Positions 26,702 to 60,437 of a stretch of DNA of 64,000 nt are shown here, piece by piece; within the stretch, counting starts at the first letter, position 1; every line of letters begins with the position of its first letter. A model generated the notes under the pieces. That model worked only from the letters and a program-made list of their open reading frames with translations. It had not been told where the DNA came from and searched no databases. Source of the DNA: a virus; IMG/VR virus record IMGVR_UViG_3300009104_001210, positions 124,001 through 188,000 of that record; one strand, given 5' to 3'. The position numbers and the translations under genes are program-made.

Positions 26702-27916
26702 ATGAAAGAAATATATTTAGATCACGCTGCAACAACTTATGTTAGAGATGAAGTCTTGGGAGTAATGAATAAATATTTCCAAGATGAATATGGAAACCCT
26801 GGTAGTTTCCACACAATAGGATTACGACCTAAACGGGCGATGGCTCAAGCAAGAGAAACCGTTAGAGATATTATTAATGCTAAACGAGTAGAGGAAATTA
26901 TCTTTACGGGTAGTGGAACTGAATCAGTAAATTTGGCAATAAAAGGTTTAGTGGAAAAGTTAGAACCTCATTATGGCCCAGCACATATTATCACTTCTAC
27001 GATTGAACACGAAGCAGTAACTGAAACATTATATTATTTAGAACACGATAGAGGATACCGTATAACAAGAATACCAGTTGATAAATATGGTATGGTTAAT
27101 CCAAAAGATGTTGAAGATGCTATTGAAGAAGATACTATCTTGGTTACTATAATGTATGCTAATAATGAGATAGGAACAATACAACCGATAGAAGAAATCG
27201 GAAAGATATGTAGAGAGAAGAAAGTTTTATTCCATACAGATGCTTGTCAGGCAGGTGGAGTGTTAGATTTAGATGTAGAGAAACTAAATGTAGATATGAT
27301 GACATTGAATGGTAGTAAGATATACGGCCCCAAAGGTATTGGGATGTTGTATAAAAAGAATTCAGTAAAGTTAGTTCCATTGATTCATGGTGGAGGCCAA
27401 GAGTTTGGGTATAGGAGTGGAACACAAAATGTAGCATTCATTATGGGATTTACTGAAGCATTAAGATTAGGTCAGGAAGAAAGAGAGAAAGAAAATAAAA
27501 GATTAATTAAATTAAGAACAATGTTGGAAGAAGGTATATTAAGAAGTATAGATAAAACATTTTTAAATGGTCATCCAACAATGAGATTACCAAACAATGC
27601 TAATATCACTATATCAGATATTGAAGGCGAGGCTATGATGTTGTATTTAAATGAGTATGGGATTTGTACTTCATCTGGAAGTGCTTGTACTTCATTAACA
27701 TTAGAACCAAGTCATGTTATATTGGCAATGGGATTACCATATGAGGTAGCTCACGGAACACTAAGATTTACATTAGGTAGGAAAACTACCAAGAAAGATA
27801 TAGAAAAAATAATAGAGGTTTTACCAGGAATAGTAGAAACACTAAGAAAGATATCTCCAGTAAATGTCAATATGGATAAGTTGGAGATACAGGGAGAAAA
27901 AGTTTATGCCAACTAA
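26702..27916 (+). CDS. iscS: Cysteine desulfurase (IscS/NifS type)
   Basis: The 404-residue class V aminotransferase-fold PLP enzyme has LDHAATTYVRDEV at the start, EHEAV at 103-107, HTDACQ at 178-183, the Schiff-base lysine in NGSKIYGPKG (K206) and the persulfide Cys in TSSGSACTS (C329). It takes sulfur from cysteine for Fe-S assembly and tRNA thiolation. All catalytic residues are present and the length is normal for IscS. It is directly followed by an IscU-like scaffold and a MIP18/SufT-like gene, so the three form a metallocluster operon. Confidence 0.92.
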   Translation: MKEIYLDHAATTYVRDEVLGVMNKYFQDEYGNPGSFHTIGLRPKRAMAQARETVRDIINAKRVEEIIFTGSGTESVNLAIKGLVEKLEPHYGPAHIITSTIEHEAVTETLYYLEHDRGYRITRIPVDKYGMVNPKDVEDAIEEDTILVTIMYANNEIGTIQPIEEIGKICREKKVLFHTDACQAGGVLDLDVEKLNVDMMTLNGSKIYGPKGIGMLYKKNSVKLVPLIHGGGQEFGYRSGTQNVAFIMGFTEALRLGQEEREKENKRLIKLRTMLEEGILRSIDKTFLNGHPTMRLPNNANITISDIEGEAMMLYLNEYGICTSSGSACTSLTLEPSHVILAMGLPYEVAHGTLRFTLGRKTTKKDIEKIIEVLPGIVETLRKISPVNVNMDKLEIQGEKVYAN

Positions 27917-28589
27917 AAAGGTAACAATAGAAAAATCAGATGTATCTAACAAGAGCCAAACAGAAGGTTGGTTCTACACCGATACAGTTAAAGACCATTT
28001 CTTTAATCCAAGAAATTTATTCTATTCAGATGAAGATGCTGAAGGTTACGAGTATGATGCAGTAGGAATGGTAGGTTCACCAGCTTGTGGTGATATGATG
28101 AAGATATGGATTAGATGTTCAGAAGAACAAGATTGTATTAAAGAATGTAAGTGGCAAACCTTTGGGTGCGCATCAGCAATTGCAAGTACTTCTATGATGT
28201 CGGAAATGGTAACAGAAGATGATGGTATGAAATTAGATGATGCTATGGCGATGAAACCAAAAGATATTAATGATAGACTTGGTGGATTACCAACAAGGAA
28301 ATATCATTGTTCGGTATTGGGTGATAAAGCATTGAGAATGGCCATCAATAATTATTATGATGAAACAAATCAATCACATAGAAAGATTGAAGAAAAGACA
28401 AGAGTGATTGATAAGAAATCTAACACAACCGACCAAGATATAGAGGAAGCAGTATTAGAGGGTGCAAGAACATTTGAAGAAGTACAGAAGAAAACTAAAG
28501 TAGGAATAGGTAATCCAAAAGTTCAAATGGATGTAGAACAATTACTTAGATTCTATGTAGAGAAATATTTTGGAGAAGATGCTTTATGA
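27906..28589 (+). CDS. IscU/NifU-type Fe-S scaffold with degenerate C-terminal domain
   Basis: The ATG at 27906 overlaps the iscS stop; 227 residues. The IscU fold holds the three ligand cysteines: SPACGDMMKI (C61), FGCASAIAS (C88) and KYHCSVLG (C135). After residue 173 a segment (DIEEAVLEGARTFEEVQKKT, then VGIGNPKVQMDVEQLL) follows the pattern of the [2Fe-2S] BFD-like domain in NifU, but its expected CxC and CxxC ligands are absent. The scaffold part should work; the tail has probably lost its cluster. Confidence 0.85.
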   Translation: MPTKKVTIEKSDVSNKSQTEGWFYTDTVKDHFFNPRNLFYSDEDAEGYEYDAVGMVGSPACGDMMKIWIRCSEEQDCIKECKWQTFGCASAIASTSMMSEMVTEDDGMKLDDAMAMKPKDINDRLGGLPTRKYHCSVLGDKALRMAINNYYDETNQSHRKIEEKTRVIDKKSNTTDQDIEEAVLEGARTFEEVQKKTKVGIGNPKVQMDVEQLLRFYVEKYFGEDAL

Positions 28590-28912
28590 TTACAGAAGCA
28601 CAAGTTATAGAAAAGTTACGAGGAGTTTATGATCCAGAGATTCCAATCAATCTATATGATTTGGGATTGATATATTCTATAGGTGTAGATGAGAATACAG
28701 TAACTATAGATATGTCATTAACTACACCACATTGTGGATTGAAGGATATGATTATAAATCAAGTAGTTATGGCAGTAGAAACAATAGAAGATGCAGAGTG
28801 TGATGTGAGATTAACATTTGATCCTCAATGGACACCAACTATGTTGAGACCAGAAGCAATTGAAGTGTTGGGTGAAAATCATCCGTTAGCACAAATGGCA
28901 ATAGGAGTTTAA
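28586..28912 (+). CDS. MIP18/DUF59 (SufT-like) Fe-S maturation protein
   Basis: The 108-residue protein carries DPEIPINLYDLGLIY at 16-30, TTPHC with a conserved Cys at 50, and FDPQWTPTML near 83, the three signature blocks of the DUF59/MIP18 family (SufT, PaaD). These proteins help deliver Fe-S clusters to targets. It overlaps the scaffold gene by four bases. Full length for the family. Confidence 0.85.
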   Translation: MITEAQVIEKLRGVYDPEIPINLYDLGLIYSIGVDENTVTIDMSLTTPHCGLKDMIINQVVMAVETIEDAECDVRLTFDPQWTPTMLRPEAIEVLGENHPLAQMAIGV

Positions 28913-28913
28913 A

Positions 28914-28997
28914 ATGAGTGGTTGGTTACAAATAATAGCTGCATTATCAATAGTTGTAGCACTTGGTTATTGGTTATTTTGGGGAGAGGATTTTTAA
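28914..28997 (+). CDS. Tiny membrane peptide (27 aa)
   Basis: The peptide has one hydrophobic helix (LQIIAALSIVVALGYWLFWG) with an acidic end. It starts one base after the preceding stop codon and ends next to the following ATG, in a chain of short membrane genes. Confidence 0.45.
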   Translation: MSGWLQIIAALSIVVALGYWLFWGEDF

Positions 28998-29153
28998 ATG
29001 AATGAATTTTTACATTTTATAAAACATTTAATTGGTTTGTGTGGTGAAACTTCACATCCAAGTTTACTAATAAGTGGTGGAGCATTTCTTACCACAATAG
29101 GATTGTATTGGAAAAAATTAATAAGTTATATGAAAAATTTGGAGGGATTTTAA
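28998..29153 (+). CDS. Small membrane protein (51 aa)
   Basis: It carries a short amphipathic start (NEFLHFIKHLIGL), one hydrophobic helix (LLISGGAFLTTIGLYW) and a basic tail. It directly abuts both neighbours. Its GGAGG near 29141 is the ribosome-binding site of the selenoprotein that follows. Confidence 0.45.
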   Translation: MNEFLHFIKHLIGLCGETSHPSLLISGGAFLTTIGLYWKKLISYMKNLEGF

Positions 29154-29360
29154 ATGGATATTAGAATAGAATATTGTGTTCAATGAAATTACAAACCAAG
29201 AGCTCGTAGTTTACGACAAGAATTAAGTGATACATTTGGTTATTGGGCTGAATTAAAACCTGGAGAAAGAGGAGCATTTGAAGTGTATGTAAATGGTAAT
29301 CTAATTTTTTCAAAATTAAAGGAAGATAGATTTCCAAATGAAGGAGAAATAGTATTATGA
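29154..29360 (+). CDS. SelW/Rdx-family selenoprotein with in-frame TGA (CxxU)
   Basis: ATG 29154 follows GGAGG. The frame reads MDIRIEYCVQ, then TGA at 29184-29186, then NYKPRARSLRQELSDTFG and on to a TGA stop at 29358. If the first TGA is selenocysteine the 68-residue product fits the Rdx (SelT/SelW/SelH, thioredoxin-like) family along its length: IEYCxxU, RA..L.QEL, GxFEVYVNG and a C-terminal EDRFPNEGEI. The TGA falls exactly on the second redox position of CxxU/CxxC. Read as a stop, only ten residues would be made and the coding-like remainder would be orphaned. TGA is a normal stop elsewhere here, so this is not a changed code. SelA/B/C/D are not in the window. Confidence 0.8.
29184..29216 (+). 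promoter_or_regulatory. Candidate bacterial SECIS element
   Basis: Downstream of the in-frame TGA (29184-29186), TCGTA (29204-29208) pairs with TACGA (29212-29216) around a GTT loop. The stem begins 18 bases after the TGA, and the loop G/U sits in the range used by bacterial SECIS hairpins, which lie inside the coding sequence just after the UGA. The stem is short and must be tested by folding. Confidence 0.5.
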
Positions 29361-29449
29361 ATCAAAAATTTGGTGATATGTTTGGGAAGTTCCTTATTCT
29401 ATTTGGGATGTGGACTTTTATAGCATTTATGTTTGGAATAGGATACTAA
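29357..29449 (+). CDS. Tiny membrane peptide (30 aa)
   Basis: It starts in an ATGA overlap with the selenoprotein stop. It is mostly one hydrophobic helix (FLILFGMWTFIAFMFGIGY). An AAGGAG ribosome-binding site for glutamine synthetase follows its end. Confidence 0.45.
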   Translation: MNQKFGDMFGKFLILFGMWTFIAFMFGIGY

Positions 29450-29468: not shown

Positions 29469-30476
29469 ATGAGTCATAAGTTAGAATATATTTGGCTGGA
29501 TGGTGTAGAACCAACAGCGCAGTTAAGAAGTAAAACTAAAATAGTATCAAAGTTTGGTATAGAGGGTGGTGTAACAGCAACACAAGCACCAATATGGGGA
29601 TTTGATGGTTCGTCAACACAACAAGCAGAAGGTGGGAGTTCTGATTGTGTGTTGAAACCTGTAAGATTATATCGAAATCCATTGGAAGAAGGTACATTGG
29701 TATTATGTGAAGTATGGAATGTAGATGATACACCACATAAATCTAATACAAGACATGGTTTAGATAATACATTACAGAGTTTAGATCATGATCCAGAAGA
29801 GTGGGTTGGATTTGAGCAAGAGTATACATTATATGAAGGTGGAATACCTTATGGTTGGCCACCCGATTTAAGTGATCCATTACCACAAGGCGATTATTAT
29901 TGTGGTAGAAATGCTGGAGAACATATAATGAAAGAACATACTGATGCTTGTATAGAAGCAGGTATTAGTATTTGTGGAACTAACGCAGAAGTAATGTTAG
30001 GACAATGGGAATATCAGATTGGTGCAGGTTCTTCATTAGAAATGAGTGATGATTTATGGGTTGCTCGTTGGTTAATGGAAAAGATTTGTGCTGAATATGA
30101 TGTGGAAGTTGTTTTAGATCCAAAGCCAGTTAAGGGTGATTGGAATGGTGCAGGTTGTCATACTAATTTCTCTACTAAAGATATGAGAGGACATGGTGGA
30201 GATGAACTTATATTTAAGGCGTGTATGGATTTAGAGAAGGTACATAAAGAACATATGGCAGAATATGGTGAAGGAAACGAAAGACGACTTACGGGACTTC
30301 ATGAGACTCAGGCTATAGATACATTTAGTTGGGGAGTTTCAGACAGAGGTGCTTCCATTCGTATTCCCTGGCAAGTAGATAAAGATGGTAAAGGATATCT
30401 TGAAGATAGAAGACCATCAGCGAATTGCGATCCATATAGAGTTTGTAAAAAGTTAATTGAGACAATTATTATATGA
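29469..30476 (+). CDS. Glutamine synthetase, type II (eukaryotic-like, GlnII)
   Basis: The 335-residue protein has GFDGSST at 44-50, GFEQEY at 114-119 (metal-binding Glu pair), GAGCHTN at 227-233, the flap region RRLTGLHET at 272-280, RGASIRIP at 293-300 and LEDRRPSANCDPY near the end. These are diagnostic of compact GSII rather than the 470-residue bacterial GSI. It condenses ammonia and glutamate with ATP to glutamine in the cytosol. All catalytic motifs look intact. A divergent second copy lies at 33001. Confidence 0.9.
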   Translation: MSHKLEYIWLDGVEPTAQLRSKTKIVSKFGIEGGVTATQAPIWGFDGSSTQQAEGGSSDCVLKPVRLYRNPLEEGTLVLCEVWNVDDTPHKSNTRHGLDNTLQSLDHDPEEWVGFEQEYTLYEGGIPYGWPPDLSDPLPQGDYYCGRNAGEHIMKEHTDACIEAGISICGTNAEVMLGQWEYQIGAGSSLEMSDDLWVARWLMEKICAEYDVEVVLDPKPVKGDWNGAGCHTNFSTKDMRGHGGDELIFKACMDLEKVHKEHMAEYGEGNERRLTGLHETQAIDTFSWGVSDRGASIRIPWQVDKDGKGYLEDRRPSANCDPYRVCKKLIETIII

Positions 30477-32533: not shown

Positions 32534-33004
32534 ATGAGTTATAAAATAGAGAGTTATACAAGAGAAGAATTAGAGTTATTTCCGAATGATGAATATGGAT
32601 ATGTTAAACAGAGAGTATGGTCTACTGGACAACTTAGTACACTTGAATACTTTGATAGAAATTTTGTAAAAATTTATTTAATAAGAGATGAAAATTTAAA
32701 AATAATAGCCTTTTCTTGTGAAAAAATACCAAGATATGAAGGCTTTGATTTTGAATGGGGATACTCATATGTTGAACCAACATATAGAGGAACTCGATGT
32801 TACTTTAAATTATGTAAATATAAAAGAGATGAGGCTCGACAACAAGGTTTGATTGGTTATACAATATGTTTAAAATCTCAACCCGCTACTGTAAAGTGTG
32901 GTAAAATCCTTTGTGATATTAAAATAGATAATCCATTACATCTTGGAGAAACAGAATCATCTTTTGATAACGAAAATTTAGAATTTTGGGGAATGATGTT
33001 ATGA
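32534..33004 (+). CDS. GNAT-like acetyltransferase
   Basis: The 156-residue protein has a hydrophobic strand (NLKIIAFSCEKI), then YVEPTYRGTRCYFKLCKYKRDEA, which resembles motif A of GNAT enzymes (V.P.YRG.G....L....E.A...G) though the usual G-x-G/A is altered. Its substrate may be an amino sugar or amino acid, and it precedes the glutamine synthetase paralogue. Assignment is tentative. Confidence 0.5.
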   Translation: MSYKIESYTREELELFPNDEYGYVKQRVWSTGQLSTLEYFDRNFVKIYLIRDENLKIIAFSCEKIPRYEGFDFEWGYSYVEPTYRGTRCYFKLCKYKRDEARQQGLIGYTICLKSQPATVKCGKILCDIKIDNPLHLGETESSFDNENLEFWGMML

Positions 33005-34266
33005 ATGTAGCAATAAAATATATTTGGCAGCCAGATCCAGATATAGTTAAATTTGAAGAACTGTATCTAAAACAAGAAACAGATACATATAAAATAAAAC
33101 TAACCGATTTACCAATTAAAAATAGTAAAGAATTGACGAAACGTGAACTACAAACGATTGATTCTGATATAGTGAAACGTGGTTTTATTTTAAAACCAAT
33201 AGGAATTTGGTCAGATCCTTTAGAAGATGATACTCCTGATAAAGCACATTATTTAGTATTATGTGAAGATGGTGTATCTAAAGACTCATACCGTGATAAG
33301 TTAAAAAAATTATTAGAAAAAACAAATTTCTATAATCCCTGGGTTGGAATAGAACAAGAGTATTATCTTTTTCCAAATGAAGATACTACTTCCCCATCAG
33401 AACAAGAATTATTTAATATACAAACATCTGAAGGAGTATGTCAAACTGTTCAAAAACTTCTTGATAACTCAACTCGAAAAAATAATAGAAGATTACTTGA
33501 ACACTTATGTGTTTATTCTAAAAACGAATTATCATCATTGGATACACAAGATGATATAGTTTTTGCTTGTGCTAAAATGGGTTTAAAAGTTAATAGGGTA
33601 CAGGCAGTTAAAGAACAAGGTCCTGGACATTGGGAAGTACAGTTTGGTCCTACAGAACCATTACAAACTTTAGATGAAACAATGATTGGTCGTTATATTA
33701 TATGGAAAATAGGTAATGAAGAATTAACTGTTTCATTTGAACCAAAACCAAAAGGTTGGTCTGTAGAATATGATCTTTGGGCAGGTTCTGGATTACATTT
33801 TAATTATTCTAATGATAAAACAAGAGCAGAAAGTGTTGAAGATTATTTAGATATTAAAAAAGCTGAAGATAATCCATCATCAATAATTGAAATGGATAAA
33901 GAAGAGAGAATAAATCTTATTAAAAAAGCACCATATACTAAAGCATTATTAAAACAATTAGCTAAAAATCATAGAAAACACGTAACTGAATATGGTATAG
34001 GAAATGAAAAAAGACAAGATGGTGATCACGGAACTACTACTGGTAATGTATTTGTTTTATCAAAAGAAATAGATAATAAAAATGTTTCTGTTAGAATAGT
34101 AACTATGGGTTTGAATAAAAGATTATTATCCGACGAAGATTATTATGGATTATATCTTGAAGATAGAAGACCAAGTGCAAATGCTAATCCATATAGAGTT
34201 GCTTTAAGATATTTCGAAACAGTTGCAGAAATGCAAAAGAATAATGAAGGTAAAAAAACTAAATAG
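33001..34266 (+). CDS. Divergent type II glutamine synthetase homologue
   Basis: The start in the ATGA overlap at 33001 gives 421 residues. GSII motifs remain: WVGIEQEYYLF, GHWEVQFGP, GSGLHFNYS and LEDRRPSANANPY. Changes: the N-terminal GFDGSST block of the 29469 enzyme is not seen, there are insertions after the Glu pair and before the flap, and the flap motif HET appears as HGT, losing the Glu that closes the active site. It may be a regulatory or altered-substrate paralogue (gamma-glutamyl ligase-like). Inference. Confidence 0.75.
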   Translation: MNVAIKYIWQPDPDIVKFEELYLKQETDTYKIKLTDLPIKNSKELTKRELQTIDSDIVKRGFILKPIGIWSDPLEDDTPDKAHYLVLCEDGVSKDSYRDKLKKLLEKTNFYNPWVGIEQEYYLFPNEDTTSPSEQELFNIQTSEGVCQTVQKLLDNSTRKNNRRLLEHLCVYSKNELSSLDTQDDIVFACAKMGLKVNRVQAVKEQGPGHWEVQFGPTEPLQTLDETMIGRYIIWKIGNEELTVSFEPKPKGWSVEYDLWAGSGLHFNYSNDKTRAESVEDYLDIKKAEDNPSSIIEMDKEERINLIKKAPYTKALLKQLAKNHRKHVTEYGIGNEKRQDGDHGTTTGNVFVLSKEIDNKNVSVRIVTMGLNKRLLSDEDYYGLYLEDRRPSANANPYRVALRYFETVAEMQKNNEGKKTK

Positions 34267-34912
34267 TTATAAAGAATTAAGTTCAACTGTAGCAGATATA
34301 GTTGAGGAACAGCTTGTAGAAAAAGTTTTTCAACAACTAGTCCTTCCTACAGGTAGTACACCAATCGGATTATATAAAGAACTTGCTAAAAGAAATTTAA
34401 ATTGGTCTTATGTTAGAACATTTAATCTTGATGTTTATATTATGAATCCAAATCATTCACAAAGTTATCAAACATTTATGAAGGAAAATTTATTTAATAG
34501 AATTAATATCTATCCTGATAATTGTCATTTCCCATTTAGACCTACTTTAGCATATGAAGATAAAATAAATTATTTTGGTGGAGTTGATTTGTGTATATTG
34601 GGTATAGGTAGTAATGGTCATATAGCATTTAACGAACCTGGTTCTTCATTTAAGTCAAGAACAAGAGTAGTAGATTTAGACGAACAAACTATACAAGACA
34701 ATTCAAGATTTTTTGATTCAGTAGATGATGTACCTAAACAAGCAATAACTATGGGAATAGGAACTATAATGGAATCAAAGAAAATAATATTAATGGCAAG
34801 TGGAGATCATAAAAAAGACATTTTAGAAAAAGCATTAAATGGTAAAGTAACTGAAGATGTACCAGCATCAGTATTACAAACACATAAAAATGTAGAAGTG
34901 TATTATCATTGA
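34244..34912 (+). CDS. Glucosamine-6-phosphate deaminase-like (NagB/SOL family)
   Basis: The start ATG is at 34244; 222 residues. NagB blocks are LPTGSTPIGLYKEL (phosphate loop, 34-47), TFNLDVYI with D63, GIGSNGHIAFNEPG (N124, H126, E131) and MGIGTIMESKKIILMASG. The position that is Asp in E. coli NagB is Asn, as in many NagB homologues. It converts glucosamine-6-P to fructose-6-P and ammonia. Next to glutamine synthetase homologues this could recycle ammonia or tune amino-sugar supply. Confidence 0.8.
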   Translation: MKVKKLNSYKELSSTVADIVEEQLVEKVFQQLVLPTGSTPIGLYKELAKRNLNWSYVRTFNLDVYIMNPNHSQSYQTFMKENLFNRINIYPDNCHFPFRPTLAYEDKINYFGGVDLCILGIGSNGHIAFNEPGSSFKSRTRVVDLDEQTIQDNSRFFDSVDDVPKQAITMGIGTIMESKKIILMASGDHKKDILEKALNGKVTEDVPASVLQTHKNVEVYYH

Positions 34913-36186: not shown

Positions 36187-37626
36187 GTGTGTGGCATAGC
36201 AGGTATTTATAGTCATAGGTCTGTAGCACCAGAATTGTATGAGTGTATAGTTCATTTACAACATAGGGGACAAGATGCCGCAGGGATGATGACATATGAT
36301 GAACGTATGCACAAACATAAAGGATTGGGATTAGCTAGAGACGTATTTACAAAAAATAATATATCTTTACTTAAAGGTAATGTTGGTATTTCACATAATA
36401 GATATCCTACACATGGAGAGTTTGGTCATGGTGAGATACAACCCGTATGGACTTCCGTACCATATGGAATAGCAATAGCACATAATGGACAGATAACAAA
36501 CTATGATGAATTAGTAGAAGAAGTTACACAAAAGGAAAAGAGATATCTTAATACCACAAGTGATACTGAAGTTTTATTACATATATTAGCAAATGAATTA
36601 GATAAGAATGGAATACCAAAAACTTCAGAAGAGTTTTTTAATCATTTATGTGAGGCAGTTAGTACTATATTTACAAAAGTTAAAGGGGCTTATTCTGTTA
36701 CAGGTATTATTGTTGGAAAAGGATTAATTGTTTTTAGAGATCCACGAGGTATTAGACCATTAGTTAAAGGTGAAAGAGATGATAACGGTAAAAAGGAGTA
36801 TATCTTTTCATCAGAAAATACTATGTTTTATTCATTAGGTTATGAACCAAAGGGTAATGTATTACCTGGAGAACTTATTTACATAGATGAAAGTGGTAAG
36901 TATTTTAGCAAACGATTAGTTAAGGAAGAATTTAATCCTTGTATATTTGAGTATGTATATTTTTCACGACCAGATGCAGTACTGAATGATGTAGGTGTGT
37001 ATCGTTCAAGATTGAGAATGGGTCAGAATTTAGCATATGCATGGATGAAGAAGTATCCATATATAGTACCTGATATAGTTATACCTGCACCGAGTACGGC
37101 AAATACCGCCGCATTATCATTTGCTCATGAAATAGATGTTAGATATTCAGAAGGATTGTATAAGAATCCGTTTGTTGGTAGAACATTTATTATGCCAGGA
37201 CAAGAAGAACGTAAAAGTTCTGTTAAACATAAACTCGTACCACAAGATACAGAGATACGAGATAAGAAAGTATTAATAGTAGATGATAGCATTGTTCGTG
37301 GTAATACAAGTAAAGAGATAGTAAGAATGGTAAAAGATTTTGGAGCAAAAGAAGTGTATTTTGTTAGTGCTTGTCCACCAATAAAACACCCTTGTTATTA
37401 TGGTGTTGATATGCCAACTAAAGAGGAATTAATTGCTGGAATTAATAAAATAGATACTATTAAAAAAGATTTAGGAGTTGATATTTTACTATATCAAGAG
37501 ATAGATGATTTAGTTGAAGCAGTAACACGAAGAGGTGATCATCATATAGAGAATCCATGTATGGCTTGTCTTGATGGACACTATGTAGTTAATGGAAGAA
37601 AAGTTCATGAATTGGTACTTAATTAA
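36187..37626 (+). CDS. purF: Amidophosphoribosyltransferase
   Basis: The start is a GTG at 36187 that places Cys as residue 2 (MCGIAGIYSHR), the N-terminal nucleophile of the glutaminase domain. Other marks are HRGQDAAGM, HNRYPTHG, IAHNGQI, TTSDTE, FRDPRGIRPL, and the PRPP loop KVLIVDDSIVRGNTS in the second half. At 479 residues it is full length. It makes 5-phosphoribosylamine from PRPP and glutamine, the first committed step of purine synthesis, and so links to the glutamine synthetase upstream. Confidence 0.93.
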   Translation: MCGIAGIYSHRSVAPELYECIVHLQHRGQDAAGMMTYDERMHKHKGLGLARDVFTKNNISLLKGNVGISHNRYPTHGEFGHGEIQPVWTSVPYGIAIAHNGQITNYDELVEEVTQKEKRYLNTTSDTEVLLHILANELDKNGIPKTSEEFFNHLCEAVSTIFTKVKGAYSVTGIIVGKGLIVFRDPRGIRPLVKGERDDNGKKEYIFSSENTMFYSLGYEPKGNVLPGELIYIDESGKYFSKRLVKEEFNPCIFEYVYFSRPDAVLNDVGVYRSRLRMGQNLAYAWMKKYPYIVPDIVIPAPSTANTAALSFAHEIDVRYSEGLYKNPFVGRTFIMPGQEERKSSVKHKLVPQDTEIRDKKVLIVDDSIVRGNTSKEIVRMVKDFGAKEVYFVSACPPIKHPCYYGVDMPTKEELIAGINKIDTIKKDLGVDILLYQEIDDLVEAVTRRGDHHIENPCMACLDGHYVVNGRKVHELVLN

Positions 37627-38126
37627 TGATTAATAAGATAATGATTGTAGCGCACCCTGATGATGAAGCACTATTTGGTGGCGCTGAATTATTATCACAC
37701 CCAAAAGAATATAAAGTTGTAGTAGTAGATGAATATCACAATGATGTTAGACAAAAAGAGTTTAAGGATTCCATGCAATTTATAGGAATTACAGATTTTG
37801 AACATTGGACAGGTTATAAAGGTGGAGAAGATTATCATAGAGAAAAACTTATTTATGAGTTATTGAGAGTATTGAGAGAAAAAAAATGGGAAAAGATTGT
37901 AACTCATAATAGAGCAGGTGAATATGGTCACCCAAGACATAGAGCATTGCATGATATATTAAATCATTTAAGACCTGAAATACTATGGCAGTTTGATAAA
38001 GGTAAAGAAAGATTACCACAAGATTTATTAATTAAGAAAAGAGATTTATTAAAAGTATATGGAAGCCAAAGAGATGTTTTAGATTGGTTTAGTCCCTGGT
38101 ACGAGAAAATAACGAAGGTAAATTGA
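37626..38126 (+). CDS. LmbE/PIG-L family deacetylase
   Basis: The 166-residue protein starts NKIMIVAHPDDEALFGG: the HPDDE zinc motif (10-14), with the second part of the site in EYGHPRHRALHDIL (HxxH). This fold removes N-acetyl groups from GlcNAc-containing lipids or metabolites. It is shorter than typical (about 230) but the core is complete. It may act with NagB-like and glycan enzymes on amino sugars. Confidence 0.8.
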   Translation: MINKIMIVAHPDDEALFGGAELLSHPKEYKVVVVDEYHNDVRQKEFKDSMQFIGITDFEHWTGYKGGEDYHREKLIYELLRVLREKKWEKIVTHNRAGEYGHPRHRALHDILNHLRPEILWQFDKGKERLPQDLLIKKRDLLKVYGSQRDVLDWFSPWYEKITKVN

Positions 38127-39163
38127 TGAGAAGAGCATTAGCATATGATGACATAAATATTACACCTAAATATTCAGATGTGGAACATAGAGACGACATA
38201 AATATTACTACAAGATTTACTAAGAAAACTTTATTAGATATACCAATTGTATCTTCACCTATGGATACTATTACTGGATTTGATATGGCTTTTGCTATGA
38301 TGGTGTTGGGTGGAGTTGGTGTTGTACATAGATTTAATACTATTGAAGAACAATCATTGATAATGAATCAGTTACATACTGAAAAGTATGATCATTGTGA
38401 ATTACCATTATCTGCAGCTATTGGAGTTACAGGGGATTATTTAGAAAGGGCACAAGAATTAATTAAGAACGGATGTAATGTTCTACTTATAGATGTAGCG
38501 CATGGACATCATAAATTAGTAGGAGAAGCAATTGAAGAGGTCAAAACCAAGTTATCAGGAGTTGAAATCATTGCGGGATCAGTTGCGACAGGAGAAGCGT
38601 GTGAATACTTATGTGAAAAAGGAGCGGACTCGATTAGAGTCGGAATTGGAAATGGAAGTTTATGTGAAACGAGAATTAGAACGGGTGTCGGAATCCCTCA
38701 AGTGTCTGCTCTCATTGATTGCGTCGCCGTTGCTGATAGGTTTGATGTTCCTATTATTGGTGATGGTGGGATCCGTAATGTTGGTGATGTGTGTAAAGGA
38801 CTTGCTTGTGGGGCTGACTCGATTATGTTGGGCTCCCTGTTATCAGGTACTAAAGAAACTCCAGGCACGATTGAAAAAATAGGCCAATGGCCGAATGAAA
38901 TGTTACATAAAAAATATAGAGGTTCAGCATCATTGGACTCTAAAAAATCAAGAGGGGATAATAAAAATGTCGAAGGTAATCACAAAGTTATACCATACAA
39001 AGGGAAGGTCAAAAGAATTATACAAGATATACAAGAGGGAATTCGTAGTTCTTTCAGCTATGTTGGTGCTAACAATTTTCCTGAGTTTTATTCTAAAGTA
39101 GAGTTAATAGAAGTTACAAGAGCAGGAAATATTGAAGGTATGCCACACCTTCTTAATACTTAA
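38123..39163 (+). CDS. IMP dehydrogenase / GMP reductase family, no CBS domains
   Basis: The 346-residue TIM barrel has LAYDDINITPKYSDV, IVSSPMDTITGFDMA, the catalytic loop GIGNGSLCETR (C181) TGVGIPQ, GDGGIRN and MLGSLLSGTKE, then VIPYKGKVKRI. The length equals GMP reductase and lacks the usual IMPDH CBS insert. The IMPDH flap Arg-Tyr pair is not evident, yet the C-terminal LIEVTRAGNIEGMPH resembles IMPDH. Either reaction adjusts guanine nucleotide supply. It sits two genes after purF. Bacteria usually have IMPDH of about 490 residues. Confidence 0.85.
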   Translation: MMRRALAYDDINITPKYSDVEHRDDINITTRFTKKTLLDIPIVSSPMDTITGFDMAFAMMVLGGVGVVHRFNTIEEQSLIMNQLHTEKYDHCELPLSAAIGVTGDYLERAQELIKNGCNVLLIDVAHGHHKLVGEAIEEVKTKLSGVEIIAGSVATGEACEYLCEKGADSIRVGIGNGSLCETRIRTGVGIPQVSALIDCVAVADRFDVPIIGDGGIRNVGDVCKGLACGADSIMLGSLLSGTKETPGTIEKIGQWPNEMLHKKYRGSASLDSKKSRGDNKNVEGNHKVIPYKGKVKRIIQDIQEGIRSSFSYVGANNFPEFYSKVELIEVTRAGNIEGMPHLLNT

Positions 39164-53001: not shown

Positions 53002-53950
53002 AGATATTTTATATGAAGATCAAGCGTGGAAAACTGTTAAGTTTTTATTAGATGTAAAAAAAATATCTAATGAGGTTGTAGATATGCACAATATAGAATC
53101 TATAAAGCAATTAAATGTTTCAAGTGATGATATATGTTTTGCTAGATTTGGTCATCATTTTGATGATAAGATAGCAACTAATAAAGCATATGATGTATTA
53201 ACTCAAAAATTTAATAAAATATATCCTTCAAAAGACGCATATTATTATTATGATGATAAATTAAAGCAATATGAATTTATGTTAGAAAATGATATACCTT
53301 GTTTGAAAACATATTATGTAGGTAGTAAAGAAGAGATAGAAAAATTAAATATAAAATTTCCTATAGTTACTAAAAAAACTTGGGGGGCTGGAACTGAACA
53401 AGTTAATAAGTGGGATGATTATGAATCTATTGTTGATAATAAAGATACTCGAAGTTGGACAGGGGGATCTATATTTCCATGTTTAGTTCAAGAATATAAA
53501 GATGTAGATTATGATATTAGAGTTAGAATTTTAAACTCTAAAGTTTTCTTTACTAAAAGAATGCACGAATTTAAAACAAAAAATAAAGATAATTTTCCAT
53601 ATGGTACAAAAGAGATTCTTAAAAAAGATAGAATAAAATATCATTTACCACCATATGAAGTTCCTGTAGCATTACCAATAAATGATTTAGCAGAAGTAGA
53701 AGATATTATACCTATAGTAGAAAAATTACATAAGATTCAAAATGAAAAATTGAATAGTAATTTTGTGGTGTGGGATATTCTTAGAACAAATGAAGGAATA
53801 AAAATTCTTGAATTTAGTCATGTTACAGTATATAAAAGTTTTCCACAAATTTATTATGATATAGAATATAAAGAAGCAAATAAATTAACAATAAAAAATC
53901 GTGAACATTTTTTTTATTTGTATAACGAAATATTAAAAGGATTAATATGA
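52982..53950 (+). CDS. RimK-like ATP-grasp enzyme
   Basis: The 322-residue protein has FPIVTKKTWGAGTEQV (ATP-binding lysine), then PCLVQEYKDVDYDIRVRILN, and ends VVWDILRTNEGIKILEFSH. The VQEY.....DIRV and late acidic motif fit RimK/glutathione-synthetase-type ATP-grasp ligases that add amino acids to proteins or peptides. Its start overlaps the AspH-like gene. Confidence 0.65.
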   Translation: MKFYLHKDILYEDQAWKTVKFLLDVKKISNEVVDMHNIESIKQLNVSSDDICFARFGHHFDDKIATNKAYDVLTQKFNKIYPSKDAYYYYDDKLKQYEFMLENDIPCLKTYYVGSKEEIEKLNIKFPIVTKKTWGAGTEQVNKWDDYESIVDNKDTRSWTGGSIFPCLVQEYKDVDYDIRVRILNSKVFFTKRMHEFKTKNKDNFPYGTKEILKKDRIKYHLPPYEVPVALPINDLAEVEDIIPIVEKLHKIQNEKLNSNFVVWDILRTNEGIKILEFSHVTVYKSFPQIYYDIEYKEANKLTIKNREHFFYLYNEILKGLI

Positions 53951-55512
53951 AGAAAGTTATTATAGTTGGTGGTGGATTTGCAGGTTACTTAACAGCGTTG
54001 TTTTTAAATAAAAAATTTCCTAAATTAAAAATTGATATAATAAAATCATCAGATAAAGAACAAATTTCTGCTGGAGAACAAACAGGCAAAGAACAACTAC
54101 AATTGTTTTTTGAATCATTAGGAATTGAAGAAACTGAATGGTTTAGTAGAACAAAATCTTTTTTAAAAATAGGTAATTCTTTTGTTGGGTGGGGAAACCG
54201 TGAAAATTTTGATCCTCGAGTTGGTGGACCAGATGTAGTTAATCATAGTTTTGTAATGGAAAATAAATTATTACCTTTACTTAGGAATGGTGGTGGTATG
54301 AAATCCGTAAAGGATTCTATGAAATATAATGATAAGTTACATACTGAATTATATCAAAATAGTTTTTTAGAAACACCCATAGATAATACGGATGATTATA
54401 TAGATAGTTTTAAAAAACACTTTAAAAATAGTTTTTTTAATAGAAAGAATAATAGAGCCATAGCTCATATGCATGATTGGTTAGAGATAGGTAAATTTAT
54501 AGAAACTAAGTTTGATGATAATGTTAAAATAATTACTGATCATATAACTGATGTGGTTGTAGATAAAAAAAATAATACTATAGAATATCTTGTTAATAAA
54601 GATAAAGAAAAGATTAAAGCAGATCACTACGTAGATTGTACAGGTATTAGTAGAATTTTGATTTCTAAACTTAGTAAAGTTGTAGATATTAGTGATGAAT
54701 ATCCTGTAAATAGTGCCGTATTTGGTCCAGTAGAATATATAGATAGAACTAAAGAGATGGTGCCAACCTTATATACTACTGCTTTTAAAAATGGTTATTC
54801 ATTTAAAACACCATTACAACATAGGATAGGAACAGGATATGTCTATTCAGATAAGTATATTAGTAAAGATGAAGCAATAGATGAGATAAATGATTATTGG
54901 GATGGTAGATTTAAGTCAGATCAAGTTAATCATTTAAAATGGACTCCATCTTATGTAGTTAAACCTTTTCAGAAAAATTGTAGCGCTGTAGGATTAGCAG
55001 GACAATTTGATTGTCCAATGGAATCTACAGTATTTACTCAGATATCAACTGCTCTTCAACAATTAGGAAATTATTTAAATAGAGATAATAAATTATTATA
55101 CATGAATCGTTCTGATATAAGAGATGAAGATATGTTAAATTATTGTAATACTTGGACTGAATATACTTTTCATAATACAAGACATTTTAAACAAATGATG
55201 TTTTATACTACAAATAGAGATGATAGCGAATTTTGGAAGAATATTAAAACACTTAATTATTCTGATATTTTTTATAAAAAATTAAGTTTCTTTTTAGACA
55301 ATTCATTTGATTATATAATAGAAAATAGAAATAAGTTTCCTGATTATACTCCACCAACAAATTTTAATATTAATGAAGATAGATTTTGGAGAGTATATCA
55401 AAAAGGATTTAAAGGATATTTTGATTATATGGGAATAAGGGGTGTAGGACATAGTATGATATTAGATGTTCATAATTGGTTAATGATTCTTGCGTATAAA
55501 AAATACATTTAA
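53947..55512 (+). CDS. Flavin-dependent tryptophan halogenase-like
   Basis: The 521-residue protein has a FAD site VIIVGGGFAGYLTALFL at 4-20, then SAGEQTGKEQLQLF, where the GEx.. region and lysine of tryptophan halogenases would lie, and FKTPLQHRIGTGYVYSD and VGLAGQFDCPMEST later. The WxWxIP halogenase motif is not evident. It may halogenate or oxidise a Trp-like substrate. In the same cluster are ligases and hydroxylases. Confidence 0.7.
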   Translation: MKKVIIVGGGFAGYLTALFLNKKFPKLKIDIIKSSDKEQISAGEQTGKEQLQLFFESLGIEETEWFSRTKSFLKIGNSFVGWGNRENFDPRVGGPDVVNHSFVMENKLLPLLRNGGGMKSVKDSMKYNDKLHTELYQNSFLETPIDNTDDYIDSFKKHFKNSFFNRKNNRAIAHMHDWLEIGKFIETKFDDNVKIITDHITDVVVDKKNNTIEYLVNKDKEKIKADHYVDCTGISRILISKLSKVVDISDEYPVNSAVFGPVEYIDRTKEMVPTLYTTAFKNGYSFKTPLQHRIGTGYVYSDKYISKDEAIDEINDYWDGRFKSDQVNHLKWTPSYVVKPFQKNCSAVGLAGQFDCPMESTVFTQISTALQQLGNYLNRDNKLLYMNRSDIRDEDMLNYCNTWTEYTFHNTRHFKQMMFYTTNRDDSEFWKNIKTLNYSDIFYKKLSFFLDNSFDYIIENRNKFPDYTPPTNFNINEDRFWRVYQKGFKGYFDYMGIRGVGHSMILDVHNWLMILAYKKYI

Positions 55513-59603: not shown

Positions 59604-60437
59604 ATGCTTGAACGATTTAAAAACTTTAAATTATTAATCGGTATATCTGCTTTAACAGTAGCAGGGTCAGCAGCGTTCTTTTCAGTATTTGGTTTATCAA
59701 AGTTATTTTCAGGAGCACAAACTTCAGTAATTATAATGGCAGGTTCATTAGAGTTTACTAAACTTGTAGCCGCTTCATTTTTATATCAGTATTGGTATAG
59801 AGCCAGTAAGATATTAAAAACTTATTTGGGTATTGGTGTGGTTACTTTAGTGTTAATAACTTCAGCAGGTATATTCGGATATCTATCAAATGCCTATCAA
59901 GGCGCAACAATTAATTTCGAAAAACAATCCACAACTTTATTATATAAAGAAGATAGATTAGAACAATTAGAAGATGATAAAACTTATCTAAAAGAAGAGT
60001 TAGAACAATCTATTGCTTCTTTACCAGAAAATTATATTACAGCAAAAAGAAAACTTCGTGAAGATTATAATCCAAAAGTATTAGCAGTCAATGATGAGAT
60101 ATTAAAAATTAAACAAGAGATTGGTGATTTAAAAGTTGAATTAATAGAAACTGGGGTGGATGTGGGTCCCGCAATTTATTTGGCAAGAGTATTTGGAACT
60201 GATGTAGATACAGTTGTAAAGTTCTTTATATTCATTTTAATTTTTGTATTCGATCCAATGGCATTAGCTATGGTATTAGCATGGAATACTGCACTTGGTA
60301 GAAGAAGTTTTGAAGTATATGAAGAGGGTGATAAAAAGGAAAAAGAAAAGGGTGATAAAAATAAAAAAGAAAGAAAAGTCCTAACAGGCCCCGAATTTGA
60401 TGATAGACCACGAAAGGGAAGTGTAAAAATTGTATAA
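59604..60437 (+). CDS. Membrane protein with central coiled coil
   Basis: The 277-residue product has about three N-terminal membrane helices (LLIGISALTVAGSAAFFSVF; VIIMAGSLEFTKLVAASFLY; LGIGVVTLVLITSAGIFGYL), a 90-residue coiled coil (about 105-195) and one C-terminal hydrophobic region (FFIFILIFVFDPMALAMVLA). Proteins with this plan occur in marine phages as far as I recall, but no function is known to me. The tail is basic. Confidence 0.65.
   Translation: MLERFKNFKLLIGISALTVAGSAAFFSVFGLSKLFSGAQTSVIIMAGSLEFTKLVAASFLYQYWYRASKILKTYLGIGVVTLVLITSAGIFGYLSNAYQGATINFEKQSTTLLYKEDRLEQLEDDKTYLKEELEQSIASLPENYITAKRKLREDYNPKVLAVNDEILKIKQEIGDLKVELIETGVDVGPAIYLARVFGTDVDTVVKFFIFILIFVFDPMALAMVLAWNTALGRRSFEVYEEGDKKEKEKGDKNKKERKVLTGPEFDDRPRKGSVKIV

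Follow-up and report, generated by a model that had tools for sequence, protein, structure and literature searches.

SelW-like selenoproteins of the Rdx family (PF10262) are a known bacterial family that has been missed in some annotations of epsilonproteobacteria (PMC4607533, accessible text). The bacterial proteins (same text) and the phage gene described here have in common the CxxU motif, the downstream SECIS element, the short length and the fact that annotation sometimes overlooks them. The phage copy differs from bacterial SelW in its location on a T4-like phage in whose record the selenocysteine (Sec) machinery was not found, in the virus-only groups that viral proteins form in phylogenetic trees, and in the phage replication or glutaredoxin genes adjoining some viral relatives.

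In the accessible parts of three metagenomic surveys, SelW-like proteins are among the most abundant selenoproteins, with 48 genes in the Sargasso Sea (PMC1088965), 427 Sec versus 56 Cys forms in GOS (PMC2398784) and a share of 11.3% in a later GOS study (PMC9402790). The first two of these marine surveys do not use the terms phage and virus in their accessible text. The later study states, in its accessible part, that families other than those named there have no or very few viral sequences; this statement speaks against a large viral share of SelW, unless viral SelW genes lacking annotation escaped that study. Likewise, the words phage, virus and viral do not occur in the accessible text of a 2026 review of prokaryotic selenoproteomes (PMC13188914).

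Phage and viral genomes have been linked to selenocysteine in two other ways. Huge wastewater phages carry tRNA-Sec genes, and their use of Sec was inferred from tRNA calls, the word selenoprotein being absent from the accessible text (PMC10747093); in contrast, our phage shows a predicted selenoprotein gene with a putative SECIS element, and no tRNA-Sec was found above the cut-off. Hydrothermal-vent viromes contain a viral L-seryl-tRNA selenium transferase (PMC5513705, accessible text), i.e. an enzyme of selenocysteine synthesis and not a selenoprotein gene, whereas selA was not found in our record. A report of a bacteriophage selenoprotein gene was not found in the full-text literature, a corpus outside which most subscription papers and bioRxiv preprints lie. 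Eukaryotic viruses possess glutathione peroxidase selenoproteins that rely on the host Sec machinery, and these differ from the phage SelW by their eukaryotic SECIS and by belonging to another enzyme family. While the SelW family and the SECIS type are known, the phage setting, of which we found no description, and its recurrence in many viral sequences appear to be new.

The SelW gene and its carrier

The window, i.e. the whole 64-kb stretch of DNA that was analysed, is part of a virus record of 216,422 bases (G000). This record encodes a T4-type gp23 capsid protein (E 1.3e-77) and a T4-type terminase (E 6.4e-13), for which Flavobacterium phage immuto (54%) and Microcystis phage Mel-JY01 (53%) lead the listed matches. 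Judged from these two markers, the record is a T4-like phage. The predicted SelW gene consists of the following elements:

29141..29145, + strand: Shine-Dalgarno-like GGAGG, 8 nt 5' of the ATG, read directly
29154..29360, + strand: predicted Rdx/SelW selenoprotein gene (PF10262), 68 residues, residue 11 being Sec
29184..29186, + strand: in-frame TGA, predicted Sec codon of the CxxU motif, present as TGA also in the bacterial loci and in viral record L002

Starting with the ATG at 29154, ten codons precede the TGA and 57 codons follow it up to the terminal TGA at 29358-29360, which shares bases with the start codon of the small ORF that follows (ATGA). The readthrough product, MDIRIEYCVQ-U-NYKPRARSLRQELSDTFGYWAELKPGERGAFEVYVNGNLIFSKLKEDRFPNEGEIVL, matches PF10262 with E 7.6e-22 and 77.7 bits (cut-off 22.6) over profile positions 2-68 of 74, so the Rdx domain is present over almost the full profile length. 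A six-frame PF10262 search of the whole record returned the SelW gene as the single place (E 1.4e-20), and inspection by eye of other readthrough ORFs across the 64-kb window gave no second convincing candidate. The redox motif C8-V-Q-U11 is located near the N-terminus, with the TGA at its second redox position, and both C8 and U11 are invariant across 15 alignment rows. The same TGA is found in the separate viral record L002, which is 99.83% identical over 8321 bases (14 mismatches).

The AlphaFold model of the protein has a mean pLDDT of 82.1, in comparison to 60-69 for four other models. Its best PDB matches are the SelW-related structures 2fa8, 3dex and 2obk, which were also matched by a profile search from the sequence; the TM score is 0.79 towards 2fa8 and 0.66 towards mouse SelW. 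The protein is therefore predicted to adopt the thioredoxin-like SelW fold. The initial annotation had described a GGAGG-led ATG and an in-frame TGA at 29154-29360, an Rdx/SelW protein with the TGA at the second Cys or Sec position, and a viral setting. Its coordinates proved exact on re-reading, the family and the motif position are borne out by the Rdx match, which runs through the TGA and extends well past it, homologues likewise continue beyond this codon, and gp23 together with the T4-type terminase confirms the viral setting. A sequencing error at the TGA, another refuting condition named there, is made less likely by L002 and by the 60 bacterial loci read (see below), all of which have the TGA.

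An in-frame TGA could also be explained by a reassigned code in the phage, with TGA read for instance as Trp (code 4) and selenium not involved. Recoded phages do exist, as documented for TAG-to-Gln in the accessible text of PMC9523058. However, TGA terminates 32 of the 97 ORFs picked in the window, which indicates the standard code, and it also terminates the SelW gene itself 58 codons further on. In addition, the TGA falls on the position that holds Cys or Sec in the Rdx motif, neither a UGA-suppressor tRNA nor many in-frame TGAs were seen in the window, and reassignment would leave the conserved SECIS described below without a purpose. We give this explanation next to no credence.

Relatives in bacteria and in other viral sequences

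In a scan of species genomes, all 30 bacterial loci with relatives had TGA at the CxxU codon; they belong to Poribacteria, Planctomycetota, Campylobacterota, Binatota and others. Because the peptide patterns used to find these loci leave out the TGA codon, its presence in 30 of 30 is not built into the search. An Rdx match was obtained in 95 of 298 Campylobacterota genomes. Among the 98 matches listed for this phylum, 95 contain TGA and three are without any stop, and reading of 30 retrieved loci showed the TGA to be the CxxU codon in every one. The 60 bacterial loci read in total represent 59 distinct ones (L040 repeats L014). A tRNA-Sec above the Rfam cut-off was present in all seven tested bacterial genomes with TGA-containing relatives. 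Three Campylobacterota genomes (G116, G168 and G278) have two Rdx matches whose starts are separated by 372-414 bases; one of the two contains TGA and the other does not in G168 and G278, where they are possibly Sec/Cys tandem duplicates.

A Campylobacterota host was considered due to the 56% identity with L014, tied with the planctomycete locus L017, and due to the NifS/NifU genes of the phage, which are typical of Campylobacterota. The trees give no support to this host assignment.

For viral contigs, the main degenerate DNA pattern was YCxxU-NY-xPxA with TGA. It found 87 stretches, 78 of which translate as Rdx. A variant with RGN after the TGA found 19 stretches, of which eight score and five were kept; the three others (L157, L170 and L171) had reached E 1.4e-4 and were dropped as 21-residue frames that end early. 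In total, TGA-containing SelW genes are present in 83 viral stretches, one of which (L144) is the contig of L002 and L036; several others repeat one sequence. Since TGA was a selection criterion, its presence in these stretches proves nothing alone, and the controls carry the argument. With Cys codons (TGC/TGT) in place of TGA, the main pattern found eight stretches in viral contigs and no Rdx among them, where Cys forms with other neighbouring residues escape the pattern; with TAA/TAG it found a single stretch, which is not Rdx.

The homologue scans of viral contigs had returned near-identical phage only (L002, L036 and L144 being the same), and a further candidate relative, L003, was a chance match of 19 residues. 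The resulting impression of a singleton was overturned by the DNA-pattern scans, from which it follows, as far as sequence comparison goes, that the phage SelW is one of a broad set of viral genes, a breadth that the initial annotation had not anticipated. Trees were calculated from 46 and 82 rows after removal of duplicates and thinning of bacteria. In the midpoint-rooted tree of 82 proteins, 40 distinct proteins form a virus-only group (support 99/89) and 14 another (98/91); the place of the window protein is not resolved, near the virus-only group of 14.

Downstream of the TGA, the pooled pN/pS was 0.27 over 19 non-overlapping viral pairs, which had passed a filter (no length difference, 5 or more changes, pN <0.25) and do not include the window gene; three of the 19 had dN/dS values of 0.51, 0.85 and 1.21. 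Selection in these filtered pairs looks purifying. This bears on the possibility that the UGA is a true stop and the locus a host SelW copy in decay that yields a 10-residue peptide only. The ordinary folding energy of the downstream hairpin would fit such a copy. A true stop is disfavoured by a frame that is open up to a coupled stop/start, by the TGA in every bacterial locus read, by the contrast between 78 of 87 Rdx translations for TGA and one non-Rdx stretch for TAA/TAG, and by the purifying-looking selection past the TGA. We regard a decayed copy as extremely unlikely.

The SelW-bearing contigs might instead be bacterial DNA misfiled as viral. Among 27 viral records, namely the larger contigs among the SelW matches, gp23 is found in just six and the terminase in four besides the phage record itself, and many other contigs are short fragments; the 27 also include repeats of one protein (L095/L109/L130, L118/L122, L119/L125, L087/L140 and L156/L163). 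On the other hand, the T4 capsid gene lies within the same record as SelW in G000 and the six others, and for G000 gp23 and terminase refute misfiling. Furthermore, in L118 SelW is situated amid gp32-like and UvsX-like genes, in L108 a baseplate wedge gene is found ~1.4 kb away from it, and the tree contains a group of 40 distinct proteins that are all viral. Misfiling as a general explanation therefore has almost no chance of being correct. One such case may be L161, a viral contig with a G+C of 0.59 whose TGA-SelW groups with Binatota copies and lies ~5 kb from a gene of the glutathionylspermidine synthase family; it could come from another type of phage or from bacteria.

The hairpin downstream of the TGA

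Bacterial SECIS elements are hairpins 16-37 nt after the UGA with a G in the apical loop. Two features of the window are relevant here:

29204..29216, + strand: predicted bacterial-type SECIS, apical part, with stem 29204-29208/29212-29216 and loop GUU 29209-29211
29184..29228, + strand: match to covariance model R1 (trained solely on bacterial SelW sequences), 45 nt, 29.5 bits, E 8.4e-5

The hairpin UCGUA-GUU-UACGA occupies nucleotides 18 to 30 past the TGA, with the GUU loop at nucleotides 23-25, and it thereby fits both the distance and the apical loop G of bacterial SECIS elements. Its stability as a single sequence was not above that of shuffled sequences (z 0.11 for 57 nt and z -0.37 for 23 nt). 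In our view, single-sequence stability is not a strict defining feature of bacterial SECIS. Because single-sequence folding gave no support, the structural case rests on comparison.

Besides comparison, the choice of codons argues for the hairpin. In 200,000 synonymous-codon redraws, the exact register of 4 bp together with a GT in the loop arose in 0.24% (window codon usage) or 0.48% (uniform usage), a hairpin of at least 5 pairs in any allowed register in 1.2% or 3.8%, and one of at least 4 pairs in 12% or 23%, respectively. The Arg codons in the hairpin are CGT and CGA, while AGA makes up 71% of the Arg codons in 55 window ORFs.

For the comparative analysis, 29 bacterial sequences were picked for diversity, and the viral downstream 45-mers, without L100 and L117, which are cut by contig ends, were collapsed from 81 to 52 distinct ones. 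In the five-pair stem, 98.6% of cells are paired in the bacterial set and 93.1% in the viral set, and double-changed cells number 39 versus 11.4 in shuffles for the bacteria and 78 versus 23.9 for the viruses. Slid controls were lower in both sets for cells paired, double changes and covariation score. Two counts did not beat the shuffles: pairs showing any double change were as numerous in 206 of 500 (bacteria) and 500 of 500 (viruses), and further pair types in the viral set were matched in 184 of 500. The G of the loop is conserved without exception across the 81 aligned rows (52 viral and 29 bacterial). In a fixed register, all four core pairs form in 42 of the distinct viral 45-mers, three in six and at most two in four; the outer C20-G34 pair is absent only in the window sequence (entered as L144) among the 52. 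The candidate outer pairs 18-36 and 19-35 were dropped, as they form in just three and four of 19 sequences. Taken across relatives, the alignments indicate that the stem of the putative SECIS is kept by compensatory change, and this comparative evidence appears much stronger than the energy evidence.

The R1 match at 29184-29228 is the best of eight at E <=10 in the 64-kb window and, with E 2.8e-4, again the top one when the whole record is scanned. With a sequence-only model, this place scores 13.4 bits across the first 21 model positions. The shared coding sequence supplies part of the 29.5 bits. At the terminal UGA 29358, R1 gave no match. The second R1 match in the window (60059-60104, 16.5 bits), inside a 277-residue ORF at 59604-60437, leaves the stem unaligned and is probably due to chance. 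The initial annotation had noted a hairpin with a GTT loop about 18-30 bases after the TGA and suggested a bacterial-type SECIS. The hairpin is where it was placed, and compensatory changes, the invariant loop G and the first rank of the bacteria-only model in the window favor the SECIS; the folding check, proposed at the same time, did not set the region apart from shuffles.

A near-cognate tRNA for Cys or Trp might read the UGA, with the hairpin serving as a generic readthrough enhancer. A shortage of selenium can indeed permit misreading of UGA. Against this speak the position of the hairpin and its loop G, which are as in copies from bacterial genomes with tRNA-Sec, and the main viral pattern with Cys codons, which gave no Rdx in eight stretches, Cys forms with other neighbours escaping it. 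We consider near-cognate reading very unlikely.

Selenocysteine machinery, gene neighbourhood and possible role

Neither selA, selB and selD nor a tRNA-Sec above the cut-off was found in the phage record, which is possibly incomplete. Two sub-cut-off tRNA-Sec matches in it (31.7 and 28 bits; cut-off 47) coincide with the ordinary tRNA-Cys and tRNA-Glu. In the 27 other viral records there is likewise no tRNA-Sec above the cut-off, and matches below it in 13 of the 27 were left uncounted. Because the Sec genes were not found in the record, we presume host factors; the earlier suggestion of insertion by host or phage factors is, to the extent that this record reaches, narrowed to the host. We consider it very probable that the phage gene encodes a SelW-like selenoprotein into which Sec is put at UGA 29184 by means of host SelB and the hairpin. 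We propose that during infection host SelB, charged with host Sec-tRNA, would bind the hairpin and its loop past UGA 29184, that Sec would be inserted as the second redox residue of the CxxU motif, and that translation would stop at UGA 29358. The product would be a small thioredoxin-fold thiol oxidoreductase of the Rdx type. Most likely it would perform thiol or glutathione-linked redox work in phage replication; a role in thiol redox balance, perhaps serving nucleotide reduction or protection during replication, is conceivable.

The SelW gene is part of one tight gene string:

26702..27916, + strand: NifS-like cysteine desulfurase (aminotransferase class V), in the SelW gene string
27864..28589, + strand: NifU_N-type Fe-S scaffold protein
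28586..28912, + strand: FeS_assembly_P (SufT-like) protein
28914..28997, + strand: hydrophobic 27-residue ORF, no function assigned, read directly
28998..29153, + strand: 51-residue ORF directly 5' of SelW, no function assigned
29357..29449, + strand: hydrophobic 30-residue ORF overlapping the SelW stop, no function assigned, read directly

The NifS-, NifU- and SufT-like genes are consecutive, overlapping and upstream of SelW. As a speculation, selenium release might be a further activity of the NifS-like enzyme. In other viral contigs, SelW lies between a Nudix gene and the gp32-like and UvsX-like genes (L118), has gp32-like neighbours by eye (L110, L128 and L141), is accompanied within 1 kb by a Pfam-confirmed glutaredoxin (L120, L140 and L088) or, by eye, by a glutaredoxin-like ORF (L068).

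In a broader sense, Sec would be established in T4-like phages of Sec-decoding hosts, more than one lineage would carry SelW with its own SECIS, metagenomic SelW would be partly phage-borne, and the requirement for host selenium machinery would link host range and infection to selenium supply. For this extended proposal we see an even chance, lowered by the few or absent viral sequences that PMC9402790 reports for the other families it examined. Should the selenoprotein reading of the phage gene be right, Sec as the 21st amino acid is used by phages, which then rely on the Sec decoding of their hosts. One can then test whether infection is restricted by the selenium status of the host, and whether phage genes are counted in metagenomic surveys of SelW. 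Viral SelW genes are easily overlooked by standard annotation; no PHROGs family matches the SelW product at E 0.001, and four SelW queries against 50,697 phage records gave no match.

Further genes of the window were recorded in passing. Two different glutamine-synthetase-like ORFs (29469-30476 and 32986-34266) are followed by a glucosamine-6-phosphate isomerase-like gene (34223-34912), a glutamine amidotransferase/phosphoribosyltransferase-like ORF (36187-37626) and IMPDH (38123-39163), which with its neighbours makes up a rich nitrogen and nucleotide gene set. The ORF at 50020-51354 matches the intein-splicing family PF14890, with a weaker Hint match below the cut-off. A tryptophan-halogenase-like gene (phrog_2928) is encoded at 53947-55512 and also occurs in the SelW-bearing phages L120 (143-1804) and L140 (9936-11465).
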